This document shows, one piece after another, positions 13,060 to 39,493 of a stretch of DNA of 64,000 bases (its first letter is position 1; each line of letters starts with the position of its first letter). The position numbers and the translations under genes were made by a program. Source of the DNA: Halogranum rubrum (GTDB lineage Archaea; Halobacteriota; Halobacteria; Halobacteriales; Haloferacaceae); contig NZ_FOTC01000008.1 in NCBI RefSeq assembly GCF_900114455.1, positions 62,001 to 126,000 on the forward strand, read 5' to 3'. The notes below the pieces were generated by a model. The model searched no databases, had not been told where the DNA came from, and worked only from the letters and a program-made list of their open reading frames with translations.

Positions 13060-13584
13060 ACCACCTACACGTCGCCGGAGAGCATCAATCACCGCGTCGG
13101 TTACACGGCCACCCCGACGGTCGCGTCCCACGCACTGTCGCCGTCGCCACCACCCGCTCGTCCGCCGCGAGGTGGGACACTCCCAACGACCTGTTTCGTC
13201 CCCGAGTGTCAACCGACCAGTTTGCTTGTCTCGTCACCGGCATACGAATGGCGGACGGCGACGGGGCGAGACGGAATCACGTTACAAACGTAGCGTTGTA
13301 ACAGACACACCCAGCCAACGAGACGAATCTCGGGTCACAACAGAACGTTTCGGCCCGTCTCGTCGGGTGACTTCGTGTCGTGGAGAGGGGTGGCGTCTGG
13401 TGGGTGATGGATGCGAGTCGATACGTGTCGTGTTGCTCGCGAGGACGCTTTCGCAACGTCGAGATGACTCCAAAAACCGCCAGCCTGCGGCCGGTTTACC
13501 ACAAGAGATATGCTCTATCTGACTGAACTACCACTCGTCTTACGCCCCGGCGGAGCCCCCGTTCCGGAGCAGAGCGTCTCGCCC
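13060..13584. other. Intergenic region between divergent VWA operon and surface-protein gene
   Basis: No supported gene; the open frames here are Arg-rich shadows. It must hold the promoter of the minus-strand operon and that of the plus-strand gene at 13585. A 7-base inverted repeat (GTTACAA at 13281-13287, TTGTAAC at 13296-13302) may be an operator. A smaller hairpin (CGAGA/TCTCG) lies about 13319-13332. A weak TATA-like stretch (CGGTTTACCAC) at about 13491-13502 fits a start of transcription some 60 bases before the plus-strand gene. Confidence 0.5.
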
Positions 13585-15210
13585 ATGCCGCCTTCCAGCC
13601 TCTCCACGACACTTGCCCGTCTCGCGGTCGTCGCCGTCCTCGTGTTCGCAACCGTCGTTGCGACACCGGGCGTCCTCGCCGCGGATGCGACCGTCACGTT
13701 CGACGCCGAGACGTACTCGGCTACCCGCGGTGCCATCGTCCCACTCACCATCTCGCTCGATGGTGCACAGAGCGCCACCGTCACACTCACGGAGACGACC
13801 GGCGCATACGCGGCCACCGTCACTGTCGTCGACGCCGACGAAGACGGAACGGTCCGTCTCGAACTCGACACGTTCGCCGCGGGGTCGGGCAACGACTTCC
13901 ACGCGTACCGCGCCACCGACGGCGACCAACTGGTCTCGGTGACGCGTCTCACGCCCGCGCGTTCGGACCCCCTCCCGGCCGGGACGTACGCGCTCGTCGC
14001 CGTCGCAGGCGAGTCACGAGACGACGCGACGCTCACACTCTCTCCGTTCTCACTCGGCGCAGTCACCGTCGAGACGGCCCCACACGTCTACTCGCCGTTC
14101 GGTGAGACGCCAACCGTCAGCGACACCGTCGCCAGCGGCGACTGGGTTATCCTTCGGTTCGACGCACCCGGCCTGTCCGGTGTCGTCGACACCGACCGGC
14201 CACCCGTCTCGGCGCTCGTCTACGCCGACCCGAGTACGCCGCGTGCACGCTCGACGCACACCGTCCGCGCTCCCGTCGCCGACGCGCTACACGGCGTCCC
14301 ACTCCGCAGTCTCGTCGTCGATTACGAAGGTGAGACCGACGCCCGCCCGTGGCAACTCACGCCCGGGGCGGACGCCGCCATCGTGGGCGTCGACCACGAC
14401 AGTGACGGTACCCTCGACACCGACCTCACCGAGACGCTCGTCTCCGTCAGTACGTACAGCGACGGACGCTATCGGCTCCAGTTCGACGGAGCGTACGCTC
14501 TCGCCTCCGGTGACGAACTCGTCGTCCAGTACGAACTCCACAACCCCGATACCACCGGTTCCGACCCGGTCGCCGTCCGCATCAACGACGAGACCGAACT
14601 CGTCGGCGTAGCGACCTACGGTCCCGCCGGACAGGGGACGCTCGGTAACGGCGTGACGCTCGACCTCGTCCGGGTGGTGGACGACGAAGCAGTCCCCGTC
14701 TCGCTCGCGAACGCACACTATCGCGTCGACTTGGAGACGGAGGAACTCGTCGTCGCCACCATCGCACCCGAACTCGCCGAAGACGAGACGAGTGCCGAGT
14801 ACGTCGCGACGCTCTCGGTCTCTCCGGACAGTGCGTACGCGGACGATATCGACGACAGCGTGGTCGCACGGTACACCGTCGTCCCGCGGATGGCGAGCAT
14901 CGACGGTGTCTCGGACGGCACGCTCTCGGTCGACCAGCACCAGCAGCGACTCTCCGGGACGACCACCGTGGCTCCCGGCAGTAGACTCGTCGTCTACGCC
15001 GTCCGATACGACGACCCCCGCTCGTTCATCCAAGCCCGGCTAGTGACCGTCTCGGCGGACGGTTCTTGGGAGGCCGACTTCGAGTTCAGTGACATCGAAC
15101 CGGGGTCCCAGTTCGACGTCGCAGTGTACGACCTCGAACGCGGTGGAATCACGGCCTCGGCTGAACTCACTCCCACCGCCGTCCCTGCCGTCGTCACGTC
15201 CGCTACGTAG
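13585..15210 (+). CDS. Secreted BGTF/S-layer-like beta-domain protein without C-terminal anchor
   Basis: A 541-residue secreted protein. The start at 13585 (MPPSSLSTT) gives a signal peptide ending near residue 33 (VLAAD). The mature protein is all-beta and acidic, with an N-terminal domain (VTFDAETYSATRG), a second domain opening with ASGDWVILRFD, and a C-terminal domain with the phrase GTTTVAPGSRL. The same three phrases occur in the protein at 23506-25077, so the two are paralogues. That one ends in a Thr/Pro-rich linker and PGF-CTERM anchor; this one stops after the last beta domain, and no such anchor is encoded in any frame just downstream. It may be released or bound through other surface proteins. 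Function unknown. Confidence 0.82.
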   Translation: MPPSSLSTTLARLAVVAVLVFATVVATPGVLAADATVTFDAETYSATRGAIVPLTISLDGAQSATVTLTETTGAYAATVTVVDADEDGTVRLELDTFAAGSGNDFHAYRATDGDQLVSVTRLTPARSDPLPAGTYALVAVAGESRDDATLTLSPFSLGAVTVETAPHVYSPFGETPTVSDTVASGDWVILRFDAPGLSGVVDTDRPPVSALVYADPSTPRARSTHTVRAPVADALHGVPLRSLVVDYEGETDARPWQLTPGADAAIVGVDHDSDGTLDTDLTETLVSVSTYSDGRYRLQFDGAYALASGDELVVQYELHNPDTTGSDPVAVRINDETELVGVATYGPAGQGTLGNGVTLDLVRVVDDEAVPVSLANAHYRVDLETEELVVATIAPELAEDETSAEYVATLSVSPDSAYADDIDDSVVARYTVVPRMASIDGVSDGTLSVDQHQQRLSGTTTVAPGSRLVVYAVRYDDPRSFIQARLVTVSADGSWEADFEFSDIEPGSQFDVAVYDLERGGITASAELTPTAVPAVVTSAT

Positions 15211-15366
15211 CGCGGTGTCTCGCGTCCGTGTACTCGGCGTCATATCTCGCCGACTCCCGTTTTCGCTGCCGTCTCGTCGTACAGCGTCGACTCGACGAAG
15301 TTCCGTACTCGTCGCCGTTACCAACGCCGCTCGACTCTCGTGACCGGTTCGGCCACTGCCGGACAC

Positions 15367-15413
15367 AGAAAGTATTTACCACCTCGTTCTGCTCTCGGAG
15401 AAAGTATATACCA
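15367..15413 (+). promoter_or_regulatory. Duplicated TATA promoters of the S-layer gene
   Basis: Two copies of a 15-base element, AGAAAGTATTTACCA (15367-15381) and AGAAAGTATATACCA (15399-15413), identical at 14 positions and 32 bases apart. Each has a purine-rich BRE-like stretch followed by an archaeal TATA box. Expected transcription starts are near 15401 and 15433. Tandem promoters are known upstream of some haloarchaeal S-layer genes; use of both here is inferred. Confidence 0.7.
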
Positions 15414-15433
15414 GTCCGGGCAGTTCTTTCTCT

Positions 15434-15795
15434 TGCTCATACCAGTGTGAGGTTTGGACCTCACGTTGGCCCTCTCGGACGCACGGACACCGTGTCCGCA
15501 GCTGTTCGGGTCCAGCCGACCGTCGCGTCGACCGCATCTCGCGGTCGGTGTGCGGCCCTCGAACCCGTACGAGCGCATTCGACCGCTAGTCGAGAGACTA
15601 GAGAGCCACGGCTATGCGGCCGTCGGCGACGGTCAGCGGTCCCGGGTCTGACTCGACGCTCACCCGAGTGTCGAGTCCGGCATGAGCAGTTTGCACACGA
15701 AAGGGAACCAAAACACCCCAACATCGTACCGAACCCCCGCACCGCCCGTGGCAACACGAAACTCCCACACAACAGACCCAAACACAACACAGTCT
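15434..15795 (+). promoter_or_regulatory. Long structured 5' leader of the S-layer mRNA
   Basis: If transcription starts after the second TATA box, the mRNA has a leader of about 360 bases. The first 245 bases hold five clear stem-loops: 15447-15464 (7 bp, 4-base loop), 15484-15498 (7 bp, one-base centre), 15530-15546 (6 bp), 15586-15601 (6 bp, 4-base loop) and 15650-15677 (12 bp with one G-U pair, 4-base loop). The last 75 bases before the start codon (15721-15795) are about four-fifths A and C and should be unpaired. A 23-codon open frame (15614-15685) lies inside and ends in an ATGA overlap with an ATG at 15682 that is in frame with the S-layer protein. Confidence 0.6.
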
Positions 15796-18687
15796 ATGTT
15801 TACAACAACGAACCGTAACCGAAAGATACGGGCGCTGGTCCTCGCGACCCTGATGGTTACCTCCCTCTTCGCAGGGACGGTAGCGCTGACGGGACTCGCC
15901 GCGTCACAGGAACTGCCGCCCCTCTCCGAAGCCCCCGCGGGCACCATCTTTTCACAGGTGCAACGTGGCGGCAACGCCGATGATACAGAACGCATCGGCC
16001 TGATAAAGCGTGGTAACTCCGAGAACTTCCTGTACAACCCTTCCACCGACAGAACGACCCTCAACGAAGGTGACGTGCTCGTCGTCCGCGGCGGTGCACA
16101 GCGGTTCCTCGTCACTGCGGACAGTGCTCGCACCTACGCCGGTAGTGCCGGTTTCGCCGGCCCAGGTGCGACCGTCTTCCAAGGTGAACAGGACACGTCC
16201 GCCGTCGGTTTCAACACCGAGACGCTCGTCGGTGTCGAGAACGGTGGGGCAGAAGGTGAGACACTCGACCTGAACCAGGCGATTCCGCGCAATCAGGATA
16301 CGGGTATCTACTCCGACACCGGTGCCCGTGACGGGAACACCCTGACGATTCAGGAACCCCGCGTCAGCCGCTTCGAAGTGCTCAACCAGAACGGAGAGCG
16401 CATCGACGCTGGCGGCTCAATCGAGGAAGACGAGTTCGTCATCGTCCGCGCCGATACCAACTTCCTGGCTGCCGAGCGCGCCGAGATCAAGCTCGTCGAC
16501 CCGGCCTCTGGTGGTGCCATCACGGACGGCCTCCTGAGCATCGACGAGGCCCGCGAACAGTTCGGTGACCGCCCGGTCTTCGACGAGATCGAAGACGACG
16601 CCGGTAACGAACTGTCCGACAGATCGCTTGGCAAAGAGGGCGACCCGGACGGACTCGACCGCTCGCTGTTCAACCCGAACATCGCCCCGGCCGACACCAT
16701 CGTCCTCGTGCAGGACCTGGGTGAAGTCGAGAAGGCAGGCGACTACGAGTACGAAGTCATCAGTGAAGACGACGAACCGTTCGGTGACCTCGACGTTCGC
16801 GAGACCACCGAACTCACCATCGCCTCCTCCGACGACCCGGTTCTCAGCTTCGCCGCAGAGAACCGCTCTATCGTTCAGGGTGAGTTCGCCGAGTACGAAA
16901 TCGACCGTTCGACCGCTGGCGACTACCACGTCGTCGCGCTCTCCGCAGACGACCTCCGGACGAGACCATCGGGCGACACGGACGTCGGTGAAGTGACCGA
17001 CGTCTTCCGTGAGTTCAACGACGGTGGTTTCCTCTCCGGTGTGCTCGTGAACACCGGCGACGGTGAACTCGTCGCTGTCCTCGAAGACGGCCGCGTCTTC
17101 AGCAACGGCGAAGACGTGACGGACGAGTTCCCGGAACTGGCGAACGGCACTGTCCCCGGTGGTGACATCGAGGACGTCTTCACGCTCGTCGAAATCGACT
17201 CCGACGGACTGGGCATCAACCAGATCGATACGGGTCGTCTCGACGACTCCAGTATCGACCTCAACCTCTACGACGGCTTCCCGAACCCGGCCGAAGCAGT
17301 CGCTGACTACGAGACCAACGACGGCGACGACGACACCGACGAAGTCACCTTCAGTGTGGCTGAAGCGACCGAAGGCCTCGCGATTACCTCGCCCGGTGCG
17401 GCCTACGTCGCCGGTGACGATATCGACGTCGAGGGTACTGCCGACCCGGCACTCGACGCCGTGTCTGTCTACGCCCGCGACGACGGTGACTGGGAACTCA
17501 TCGAAGAGCTCGACCGCGTCTCCGTCGACGCTGACGGTACCTGGGACGAGACGGACGTCACGCTCTCGCAAGTGAGCGACGTCCTCAGAGTCCCCGGCAC
17601 CTACCGCATCGGTGTCATCGACTTCGAAGATGCCGATGTCGACGGTGACGGACAAGCGGACGCGACGCTGGAAACCTCCGACTTCAGCACGGGAACGAGT
17701 GTCCAGCGCGGCCTCCGCGTCACCGACCAGGCACTCGACGGCCAGATGGTGACTTACAACGGCCAGGTTGCCGTTGAAGACGCCACCATCAACGTCTCTG
17801 GTGTCGCCCCCGGTGCCGACGAAGTCGTGGTCATCTTCGTTGGTGACCGCGGTGGAATCGTCGTCAACACCGACTCGGTCGACGACGAAGACGTCTTCGA
17901 CAACGAAGACACCGACCTCGCCGACGCCAACGGGACGCTCGAAGAGGGTACCACGCGTGGCTTCATCATCAGCCCCGCCCGTGACGGCGTCTTCGGCGGT
18001 GAGAACGAACGCTCGCCTGACGCGTTCGCCTCCTACGTCAGAGGACTCGAAGCACGCGGTCTGACGCAAGCGCAGGCCGTCGAGCTGATTCGACAGGCCT
18101 CTGTCGACGACGACGGTTCCGACGACCTACTCGTCGAGACCGAATTCGAGATCACCGACGCCGACACGGTCATCGACAACGTCTACGCCGAAGGCGCAGA
18201 CGGCAACGCCTCGGGCATCCAACCGATTGCCCTCGGCGAGACGATGGTCATCGAAGGGACGACCAACCTCCGTCCCGACGACAACACTATCGTCCTCGAG
18301 ATGATTCGCGGCCCGAGCGCCGAGAGCTTCGACGTCGGTATCGCCGAAGACTGGGGTACCGACGGCACGTGGTCCGCCACCGTGCCCGTCCCCTCGGACG
18401 CCGAGGCTGGCACGTACGCACTCCGCGCCGACGACGGTGAGACGATCACTACCGTGAACGTCGAAATCGTCGAACAGCGCGAAGAAGAGACCACGGACGA
18501 ACCGACCGAAGAGACCGAAGAGCCCACGACGACGGCGACGGCCGAACCGACGACCGAAGAGCCGACGCCGACGCCCGAGCCAACGCCCGAACCGACGACC
18601 ACCGACACTGAGTCGCCTGGCTTCGGTATCGCCGTTGCCCTCGTCGCTCTCATCGCTGCCGCCTTGCTGGCGATGCGTCGCCGCTAG
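15796..18687 (+). CDS. S-layer glycoprotein (PGF-CTERM), probably the major one
   Basis: A 963-residue surface protein. The start at 15796 (MFTTTNRNRK) gives a signal peptide cleaved near residue 36 (LAASQ). The mature protein is very acidic and beta-rich with several Asn-X-Ser/Thr sequons. A C-terminal domain (residues about 650-895) begins TYNGQVAVED and includes IFVGDRGG and LTQAQAVELI. It is followed by a Thr/Glu/Pro-rich linker (about 897-938), likely O-glycosylated, and the PGF-CTERM signal (PGF at 941-943, hydrophobic helix, RRR end), the known substrate of archaeosortase A. Strong duplicated promoters, a long leader and a terminator all point to high expression. The C-terminal domain recurs in a broken gene downstream and in the gene at 40370. 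Confidence 0.9.
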   Translation: MFTTTNRNRKIRALVLATLMVTSLFAGTVALTGLAASQELPPLSEAPAGTIFSQVQRGGNADDTERIGLIKRGNSENFLYNPSTDRTTLNEGDVLVVRGGAQRFLVTADSARTYAGSAGFAGPGATVFQGEQDTSAVGFNTETLVGVENGGAEGETLDLNQAIPRNQDTGIYSDTGARDGNTLTIQEPRVSRFEVLNQNGERIDAGGSIEEDEFVIVRADTNFLAAERAEIKLVDPASGGAITDGLLSIDEAREQFGDRPVFDEIEDDAGNELSDRSLGKEGDPDGLDRSLFNPNIAPADTIVLVQDLGEVEKAGDYEYEVISEDDEPFGDLDVRETTELTIASSDDPVLSFAAENRSIVQGEFAEYEIDRSTAGDYHVVALSADDLRTRPSGDTDVGEVTDVFREFNDGGFLSGVLVNTGDGELVAVLEDGRVFSNGEDVTDEFPELANGTVPGGDIEDVFTLVEIDSDGLGINQIDTGRLDDSSIDLNLYDGFPNPAEAVADYETNDGDDDTDEVTFSVAEATEGLAITSPGAAYVAGDDIDVEGTADPALDAVSVYARDDGDWELIEELDRVSVDADGTWDETDVTLSQVSDVLRVPGTYRIGVIDFEDADVDGDGQADATLETSDFSTGTSVQRGLRVTDQALDGQMVTYNGQVAVEDATINVSGVAPGADEVVVIFVGDRGGIVVNTDSVDDEDVFDNEDTDLADANGTLEEGTTRGFIISPARDGVFGGENERSPDAFASYVRGLEARGLTQAQAVELIRQASVDDDGSDDLLVETEFEITDADTVIDNVYAEGADGNASGIQPIALGETMVIEGTTNLRPDDNTIVLEMIRGPSAESFDVGIAEDWGTDGTWSATVPVPSDAEAGTYALRADDGETITTVNVEIVEQREEETTDEPTEETEEPTTTATAEPTTEEPTPTPEPTPEPTTTDTESPGFGIAVALVALIAAALLAMRRR

Positions 18688-18725
18688 GTCGGTAGCTCGA
18701 CCTCTCGTTCGTCCCCTCATTTTTT
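18686..18725 (+). terminator. Terminator after the S-layer gene
   Basis: A 6-bp stem (AGGTCG at 18686-18691, CGACCT at 18698-18703, 6-base loop) starts on the stop codon and is followed by a run of six T at 18720-18725. The T-run is the usual archaeal termination signal. Confidence 0.6.
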
Positions 18726-18897
18726 GGCACTCGTGACCCGTAGCGAGCGCCAGCCTCGTCTACATCTGGCAAACGTATTTGCCACTGCTCCACAACATAG
18801 GGAGTATCCGTGCTCTCGGCAGCGAGCGACTGGTGACCTGTCTCGTCCCCGTCGACTACCACTGGATGTCTCGCCGGGAGGCGGAGGAGCGTCTGTC

Positions 18898-19982
18898 ATG
18901 CGTGTTCTAAGAGCTTCGAAACGTTCGGGAGATACCAAGAATCGTACCATCGTGGTCACCCTCCTACTCGTCGGCGTCGTCGCCGGTAGCACCGTCTCAC
19001 TCGCCGTGGCGGGTGCACCGTTCGCTACGCCGATACTGCTGGTGTCGGCACAGGAAGACGAGTCGACACCACTCTCTGCGACCGTCGAGACGTACGACGG
19101 ACAGGTGGCCGCCGAAGACGGTGACGTCACCGTGACCGGGTCGGCGTCGACGGACGGGGACGTCGTCGTCGTCTTCGTCGGCAGTAGAGGAACCGTCGTC
19201 GCTTCGACGCTCCCCGTCACCGACGACCGCTTTTTCACCTCCATCGACCTCGACGAGATGGAGAACGGGTTCGTCGACGGCATCGTCGTCTCGCCGAGTA
19301 CGTCAACACCCTCTCGGGTCGCGACCTGACACAGGACCAGATTCGTGAGGTACTCCTCGAGGTGACCGTCGACGGCGACGCCTCGGATGACCTCGCTACC
19401 GACGTCCCGTTCGTCCTGGCACAGGGCAACCTCCGTCTCACCGATGTCGTCCCCAACGGTAACCGACAGGCATCTGGCGTGCGGCCGATTGCCGCCGGTG
19501 AGACGATGCTCGTCCGCGGTCTGACGAACCGTCAGCCAAGCGGCGTCCTCGTCGAGGTGACTGTCGAGGGGCCGAACGAGACGCTCGGTCCCGTGGCTGC
19601 CGAGGACTGGGAGACGGACGGCGTGTGGACGGCCACACTCGACGTGCCGAGCGATGCCACACCCGGCACGTACACCGTCATCGCCGACGACGGCGAACAG
19701 TCCGCCGACGTCGACGTGGAAGTCGTCGCTCAGCGAGCAGAACCGACGGCGAGTGAGACGACTGGGGCGGCCGAGGACGGTGAGAGCCCGACCGCGACGG
19801 CAACGGCCACGCCGACGCCGGCGTCCACACAGTCGACGACCGACCCCACGCCGGAACCGACCCCGGAGCCGTCACCCGAACCGACGACGACCGAGACGCA
19901 ATCGCCCGGCTTCGGACCGTTGGTCGGACTGGCTGGACTGTTCGGACTCCTCGTACTTGCGAGAGTTGTCCGTCGGCAGTAG
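18898..19982 (+). pseudogene. Frameshifted paralogue of the S-layer C-terminal domain (PGF-CTERM)
   Basis: The first frame (18898-19329) has a signal peptide or anchor helix (residues about 18-38), then TYDGQVAAED and VFVGSRG, matching the S-layer protein, and reaches DGIVVSPS before stopping. From about 19293 the homology continues in another frame (AEYVNTL, LTQDQIREVLLEV, DGDASDDL) and runs to 19982, ending in a Thr/Pro-rich linker and a PGF-CTERM anchor. At the switch about 17 residues present in the S-layer protein (between ISPA and ASYV) are missing. A deletion of 3n+1 bases between short CGCC/GCC repeats explains both the loss and the shift. The downstream part could still start at a GTG (19362) but would lack a signal peptide. 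A sequencing error alone would not remove the missing segment. Confidence 0.75.
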
Positions 19983-38854: not shown

Positions 38855-39493
38855 ATGTTCCGAAACCGAACCGACGCTGGCCGTAGACTCGCAACGCTCC
38901 TCCGCGAGCGGGACATCGACGCGGACGTCGTCCTCGCTGTCCCGCGCGGTGGACTCCCCGTCGGACGCGCCGTTGCCGACGAACTCGGTCTTCCGCTCGA
39001 CGTCGTCGTCGCTCGAAAGATTGGCGCACCCGCGAACCCGGAACTCGCTGTCGGTGCCGTCGCCAGCGACGGGACGCTGTGGCTGAACGACTCACTCATC
39101 GACACACTGGGCGTCGGTAGCGAGTACATCGAGCGACAGCAGCGTGAGGAGGCTGCCGCCGCCGCCGACAAACTCAACCGCTACCGACGCGGGCGACCAC
39201 CGTTGGACCTACACGGAAAAGCCGTTCTCGTCGTCGACGACGGCGTCGCTACGGGAGCGACGACCGTCGCCTGCCTCCGACAGGTCCGTGCTGCCGGAGC
39301 GAAGCGAACACTCCTCGCGGTACCCGTCGCGCCACCTGAGACTCTCTCGCGTCTTCGCATGGAAGCCGACGCCGTGTTCTGTGCCGAGACGCCGCGGTAC
39401 TTCGGCGCAGTGGGTGCCTTCTACGACGACTTCGGACAGGTGAGCGACGCCGAGGCGATGTCGTATCTCGGTGACGACGGCGCGAGCGTCTGA
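38855..39493 (+). CDS. Phosphoribosyltransferase-like protein
   Basis: A 212-residue type I PRTase fold. The PRPP-binding loop is present (VLVVDDGVATGATTVA), as are an N-terminal LAVPRGGLPVG and the KIGAPANPELAVGAVASDG stretch typical of stand-alone PRTase-domain proteins often annotated with alpha/beta hydrolases or erythromycin-type esterases. Likely cytoplasmic. The substrate is not defined; these proteins are distinct from hpt and upp. It is divergent from the dodecin gene across a 140-base gap. Confidence 0.85.
   Translation: MFRNRTDAGRRLATLLRERDIDADVVLAVPRGGLPVGRAVADELGLPLDVVVARKIGAPANPELAVGAVASDGTLWLNDSLIDTLGVGSEYIERQQREEAAAAADKLNRYRRGRPPLDLHGKAVLVVDDGVATGATTVACLRQVRAAGAKRTLLAVPVAPPETLSRLRMEADAVFCAETPRYFGAVGAFYDDFGQVSDAEAMSYLGDDGASV

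Follow-up and report, generated by a model that had tools for sequence, protein, structure and literature searches.

Very abundant S-layer mRNAs of bacteria, transcribed from slpA genes in Lactobacillus and Thermus, carry long untranslated leaders which are said to aid stability or translation. No homology between these and a haloarchaeal leader is expected, and bacterial ribosome binding differs. In the haloarchaea, the S-layer gene csg gives the most abundant transcript of Haloferax volcanii (PMC10448506) and is the top protein-coding gene of Haloquadratum (PMC5496347). Stem-loops in 5'-UTRs of Halobacterium salinarum and H. volcanii have a demonstrated role in translational control (PMC2636863). 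These cases resemble the one proposed here in that stem-loops affect expression, but they concern other genes, and the 3'-UTR is needed too. Of the mRNAs of H. volcanii, 72% are leaderless and only 97 UTRs exceed 150 nt (PMC4983044), in agreement with the statement in a preliminary description of the present locus that most haloarchaeal mRNAs have short leaders or none. In H. volcanii, high expression also tends to go with leaderless mRNAs (PMC4983044), so that abundance by itself does not require a leader.

Here we describe an S-layer gene of Halogranum rubrum with a long predicted leader, which consists of a closed folded domain and an open A/C-rich tail. Coordinates refer to the window, the whole 64,000-nucleotide stretch of DNA that was analysed. 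We think it probable that this leader acts in cis, the folded domain shielding the mRNA 5' end and the open tail giving ribosome entry. The computed evidence covers the spacing of the promoter, the structure and the selection on its pairing, the position of the leader and the identity of the gene. The features of the locus are as follows.

15368-15381, + strand: upstream promoter-like box AGAAAGTATTTACC (sequence; kept in the same-genus genome G001; BRE/TATA type used before S-layer genes)
15401-15414, + strand: proximal BRE/TATA box AAAGTATATACCAG (sequence; kept in G001; predicts a transcription start near 15434)
15434-15689, + strand: closed multibranch RNA domain, the leader core (fold z -6.30; homologous and pairing-compatible in G001)
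15442-15469, + strand: hairpin 1, CCAGUGUGAGGU/ACCUCACGUUGG (inverted repeat, fold, G001 comparison)
15474-15501, + strand: hairpin 2 (MFE structure)
15506-15645, + strand: branched arm with several inner hairpins (fold; most conserved part of the leader)
15646-15681, + strand: 3' hairpin with a 12-bp stem at 15650-15677 (inverted repeat, fold, G001 comparison)
15690-15795, + strand: A/C-rich tail up to the start codon (106 nt; 77% A+C; little structure)
15796-18687, + strand: S-layer glycoprotein gene (963 aa; halo_sig_pep signal peptide; PGF-CTERM)

The S-layer gene and its predicted promoter

The gene that follows the leader had been taken for an S-layer gene, and its product scored 495.5 bits with TIGR04216 (curated cut-off 400), which assigns it to the HVO_2072 family of ArtA-dependent S-layer glycoproteins. 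It also matched TIGR04207 (halo_sig_pep; 36.3 versus a cut-off of 24.6) and TIGR04126 (PGF-CTERM; 45.9 versus 24.5). The start codon at 15796 was set by alignment of signal peptides. An in-frame AUG at 15682 was rejected as the start of S-layer translation, as the signal peptides align at 15796 and indels in the tail relative to G001 break the frame. The upstream neighbour on the same strand is a surface protein gene (13510-15210) with DUF7827 and BGTF domains, and between the two genes lie two promoter-like boxes, the folding stretch and the A/C-rich stretch. Downstream of the S-layer gene is a smaller S-layer-like gene (18724-19982) split over two frames (18724-19329 and 19362-19982), either by a frameshift or by a sequencing error; its G001 counterpart is one open frame of 402 aa.

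A scan of the 500 bases upstream of the S-layer start codon gave a sole TATA-like match, at -391, and none between the folded domain and the start codon. With the nearest TATA-like sequence at this distance, the gene does not show the pattern of leaderless transcripts, in which the TATA box lies about 25-30 nt before the start codon. The proximal box at 15401-15414 reads AGAAAG-TATATACC, the same box also being written AGAAAGTATATACC. The distance from TATA box to transcription start is established for archaea, and because of this usual distance and the position of the proximal box, transcription of the S-layer mRNA is predicted to begin near 15434. This predicted 5' end coincides with the first base of the helix that closes the folded domain. 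The leader would then be roughly 360 nt long, as the preliminary description had proposed, a figure that depends on the predicted promoter. Other S-layer genes are preceded by the same element as the upstream box, in the form CACAAAGTATTTACC. The two boxes (15368-15414) stand in tandem, 33 bp apart, and both are kept in G001; they possibly mark two alternative transcription starts.

Structure and conservation of the long leader

Inverted repeats were found at 15442-15453/15458-15469 and at 15650-15661/15666-15677, with others in between. In the 12-bp stem formed by 15650-15661 and 15666-15677 the one Watson-Crick mismatch is a G-U pair, and the 3' hairpin that contains this stem has a pairing probability near 1. 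The whole leader (15434-15795) folded with z = -4.05. The domain 15434-15689 alone, with borders set after the fold was seen, gave z = -6.30 (0 of 200 shuffles), and -4.97 in an independent second run. Background statistics were drawn from the 64-kb window, in which 150 random 256-nt stretches had a mean z of -0.34 and a minimum of -3.45. The hairpin-rich leader first described from this locus is therefore borne out, with its stems present, the 12-bp stem included, and a fold (z -6.3) beyond all of the random stretches. That description had counted five stem-loops; the inverted repeats exist, but the MFE structure is one closed domain rather than five separate hairpins, with two 5' hairpins, the branched arm and the 12-bp hairpin inside. 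In the closing helix, UGCUCAU (15434-15440) pairs with AUGAGCA (15682-15688), with a pairing probability of about 0.8-0.94 when computed on this genome's extended transcript. The in-frame AUG at 15682, which precedes the S-layer start, lies hidden in the 3' strand of this helix, and is GUG in G001.

The tail differs from the core in composition and folding. The 75-base stretch of about four-fifths A and C noted earlier was recovered at 15721-15795 (78.7% A+C), and this region is the only run of 75-base windows with at least 76% A+C on either strand of the 64-kb window. The tail showed no excess structure (z +0.56), and direct reading found no Shine-Dalgarno-like GGAG or GAGG in it.

G001 carries the whole leader (L021), with identities of 84% over the domain, 88% over 15474-15641 and 66% over the tail. 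When its 39 substitutions were placed on the MFE fold of the window, 6 pairs were broken versus 12.5 expected from the same changes placed at random (P = 0.0014), and on G001's own fold 7 pairs were broken versus 14.0 expected (P = 0.001). The antisense strand of the domain folds equally well (z -6.4), but on the antisense-strand fold of the window 14 pairs were broken versus 14.8 expected (P = 0.43). As the + strand pairs are spared and the antisense pairs are not, it is pairing in the mRNA strand that is kept. Three pairs are doubly compensated between the window and G001, two of them in the 3' hairpin. In G001, hairpin 1 shows a change from A-U to G-C and single-side compatible changes, with the loss of two inner pairs. 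The closing helix is conserved in G001, but other partners compete when the G001 downstream sequence is added. The comparison with relatives that had been suggested as a check thus came out in favour of the leader, which is kept with substitutions that spare + strand pairs; the long form is represented by two sequences only, and covariation within it is thin.

These comparisons bear on two other explanations of the folding stretch. It might be mainly a DNA or antisense element, made up of binding sites or of a small RNA gene in its own right between the promoter and the S-layer gene, with the S-layer mRNA starting further downstream. The equally good fold of the antisense strand would fit such an element, and haloarchaea have many antisense and intergenic RNAs, with an antisense start site reported at csg in Halobacterium (PMC6523106). 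However, the substitutions respect the pairs of the + strand but not those of the - strand, the interval between domain and start codon holds no TATA-like match, and other S-layer genes have the promoter directly before the leader. We regard this explanation as improbable. The conservation of the core could also reflect a small upstream protein (such as VRPSNPYERIRPLVERLESHGYAAVGDG..., read in frame with the S-layer gene), with pairing as a by-product of high G+C. Its frame is open in both relatives and the single core indel comprises three bases, but the substitutions fall on all three codon positions (6/4/8), there is no excess of synonymous changes (8 versus 5.4 by chance, P = 0.14) and the stop codons differ between the window and G001. 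In addition, searches for a homologous peptide or a Pfam family gave nothing, and the bias towards preserved pairs is seen only for the + strand RNA. An upstream protein is the least probable of the explanations considered here, and we give it very little weight.

A third genome of the genus, G002, is without the long leader, and its best S-layer gene has the common form described below. A DNA search of 170 genomes of the family with the leader gave short matches in 31 genomes; besides those in its own genome and G001, all were rejected as chance matches inside coding or antisense-coding sequence. A covariance model (R1) of the two long leaders gave weak full-length matches elsewhere (best E 5e-6), which were likewise set aside, the contexts checked not lying before S-layer genes. 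No exact 22-mer of the core was present in viral contigs.

A common S-layer leader in haloarchaea

S-layer genes for comparison were located via their conserved signal peptide, which gave 118 gene starts. Most of these share a leader, in the order of a promoter of the type CACAAAGCATTTATAA, then UACCCCUACC about 38 nt on, a folded part and an A/C-rich end. By strict pattern, UACCCCUACC was found at 95 of the 118 gene starts, where it precedes the AUG by 70 to 190 nt, most often by 115. A covariance model (R2) was built from 30 diverse leaders, the structure set A6. The common structure comprises a 5' CCCCUACC, a closing helix GGUGRCAG/CUGUCGCC, AGUA and GAA strands, a second helix and an apical hairpin. 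The AGUA/GAA strands correspond to the consensus of a bulged-G or loop-E module, which they may form. In A6, covariation beat all 500 shuffles and the slid controls on all five measures, 79% of cells were paired versus 39-55% in slid controls, and both sides change in 7 of the 9 closing-helix pairs. Another 30 R2 matches, most of them unused in building R2 and with an alignment fitted to R2, were 85% paired, and shuffles did as well in 0/500 cases on four measures and in 3/500 on the fifth.

At E<=0.001, R2 matched 173 of 341 genomes and 49 of 81 genera, usually at one to three places per genome. All 20 of the matches sampled are immediately followed by an ORF whose signal peptide is of the S-layer type. 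The H. rubrum genome has one R2 match (G000:C8:471822-471951), before an S-layer-type gene on contig C8 (L155 831-952), and the free fold of this paralog's leader agrees with the comparative structure. No Rfam match was obtained for the common leaders L155, L118 and L117, and none to riboswitches, leaders or sRNAs in 15200-15900 of the window at E<=5. A literature search of open papers found no paper describing a haloarchaeal S-layer leader RNA. Structured 5' leaders are a known kind; what appears to be new and previously undescribed here is the long leader together with an S-layer leader RNA family common to the order.

The long leader itself gave no R2 match, either at 15434-15795 or in G001; the only sizeable match in the window, at 39110, was rejected as it lies inside a phosphoribosyltransferase-like ORF. 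Common leaders are typically about 115 nt long and begin with GUACCCCUACCCAUGG, and the window leader is without this beginning, their closing helix and the AGUA/GAA module. It is three times longer and multibranched, begins with UGCUCAUACCAGUGUG and has another closing helix. What it shares with them is an S-layer gene directly after it, the promoter type, strong structure and an A/C-rich tail before the AUG. The promoter of the common family, an AAAG-TATA type about 38 nt before the conserved 5' motif, is present here as well, with a spacing of 39 nt (AAAG at 15401, UACC at 15440) versus about 41 in the common family. The A/C end is the longest among the 118 S-layer genes (116 nt), followed by that of G001 (96 nt), the rest being <=53 nt.

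The nearest S-layer proteins outside the genus are those with Haloplanus-type leaders (group g17). These leaders have CC-UACCAGUG near the predicted 5' end, as does the window leader (CAUACCAGUG), and their CACGAAAGAGGAAC resembles its CACGAAAGGGAAC. However, they are about 90-110 nt long with two hairpins. Within g17 (e.g. L103, L106, L111, L158), CCCCUACC and the A/C end are kept with a different, two-hairpin fold, in which GGCA/UGCC exchanges with GACA/UGUC. We do not claim homology of the window leader to Haloplanus-type or common leaders, since despite UACCAGUG at the same spacing and a similar CACGAAAG-GGAAC the local alignment scores were not above those of shuffles. The window leader is best seen as a lineage-specific, oversized leader which occupies the same place and probably works like the common leader, and we have not filed it as a member. 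It had been said to stand out; this holds for its size and its different fold, which are exceptional, but not for its presence, as S-layer genes in this group generally have structured leaders.

Proposed function of the leader

We propose that the S-layer mRNA would start near 15434 with a leader made up of a 256-nt closed domain and a 106-nt open A/C-rich tail. By pairing the very 5' end into a helix, the closed domain could shield a very abundant mRNA from 5'-to-3' decay, and it may keep its own structure away from the coding region. The unpaired tail, without a Shine-Dalgarno sequence, would offer the small ribosomal subunit a free landing strip. Besides the transcription start, we infer the high expression of this S-layer copy and both functional steps.

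The main rival of this shielding role is a regulatory switch. Here the domain would be the target of a small molecule or a protein, perhaps a factor in S-layer export or assembly, and binding would set S-layer output, for instance by hiding or exposing the tail or the in-frame upstream AUG at 15682 in the closing helix. Unpaired and junction positions of the core are strongly conserved in G001, and the unpaired CCCCUACC and AGUA/GAA of the common family are near-invariant, as in a binding site. However, neither a second conserved fold nor an anti-structure involving the start codon was found, there was no Rfam riboswitch match, and the upstream AUG is GUG in G001. We consider a switch rather unlikely, and favour a shielding domain with an open tail.

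The S-layer gene encodes the most abundant surface protein of haloarchaea, and it carries a structured leader across the order, outsized in this case. This contrasts with the conclusion of a genome-wide study, in which regulation through structured leaders was judged untypical of haloarchaea (PMC4983044). The long leader provides a defined RNA on which to study the stability of the most abundant archaeal mRNAs and their translation in the absence of a Shine-Dalgarno sequence, and is a candidate part for expression vectors. More tentatively, the common leaders may form an order-wide cis-acting RNA family whose loop-E-like AGUA/GAA module binds a protein or ligand and so controls S-layer output, and certain lineages, this one included, may have swapped in a different, much larger fold at the same place. 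If so, position and task would be conserved while the RNA architecture is exchangeable.
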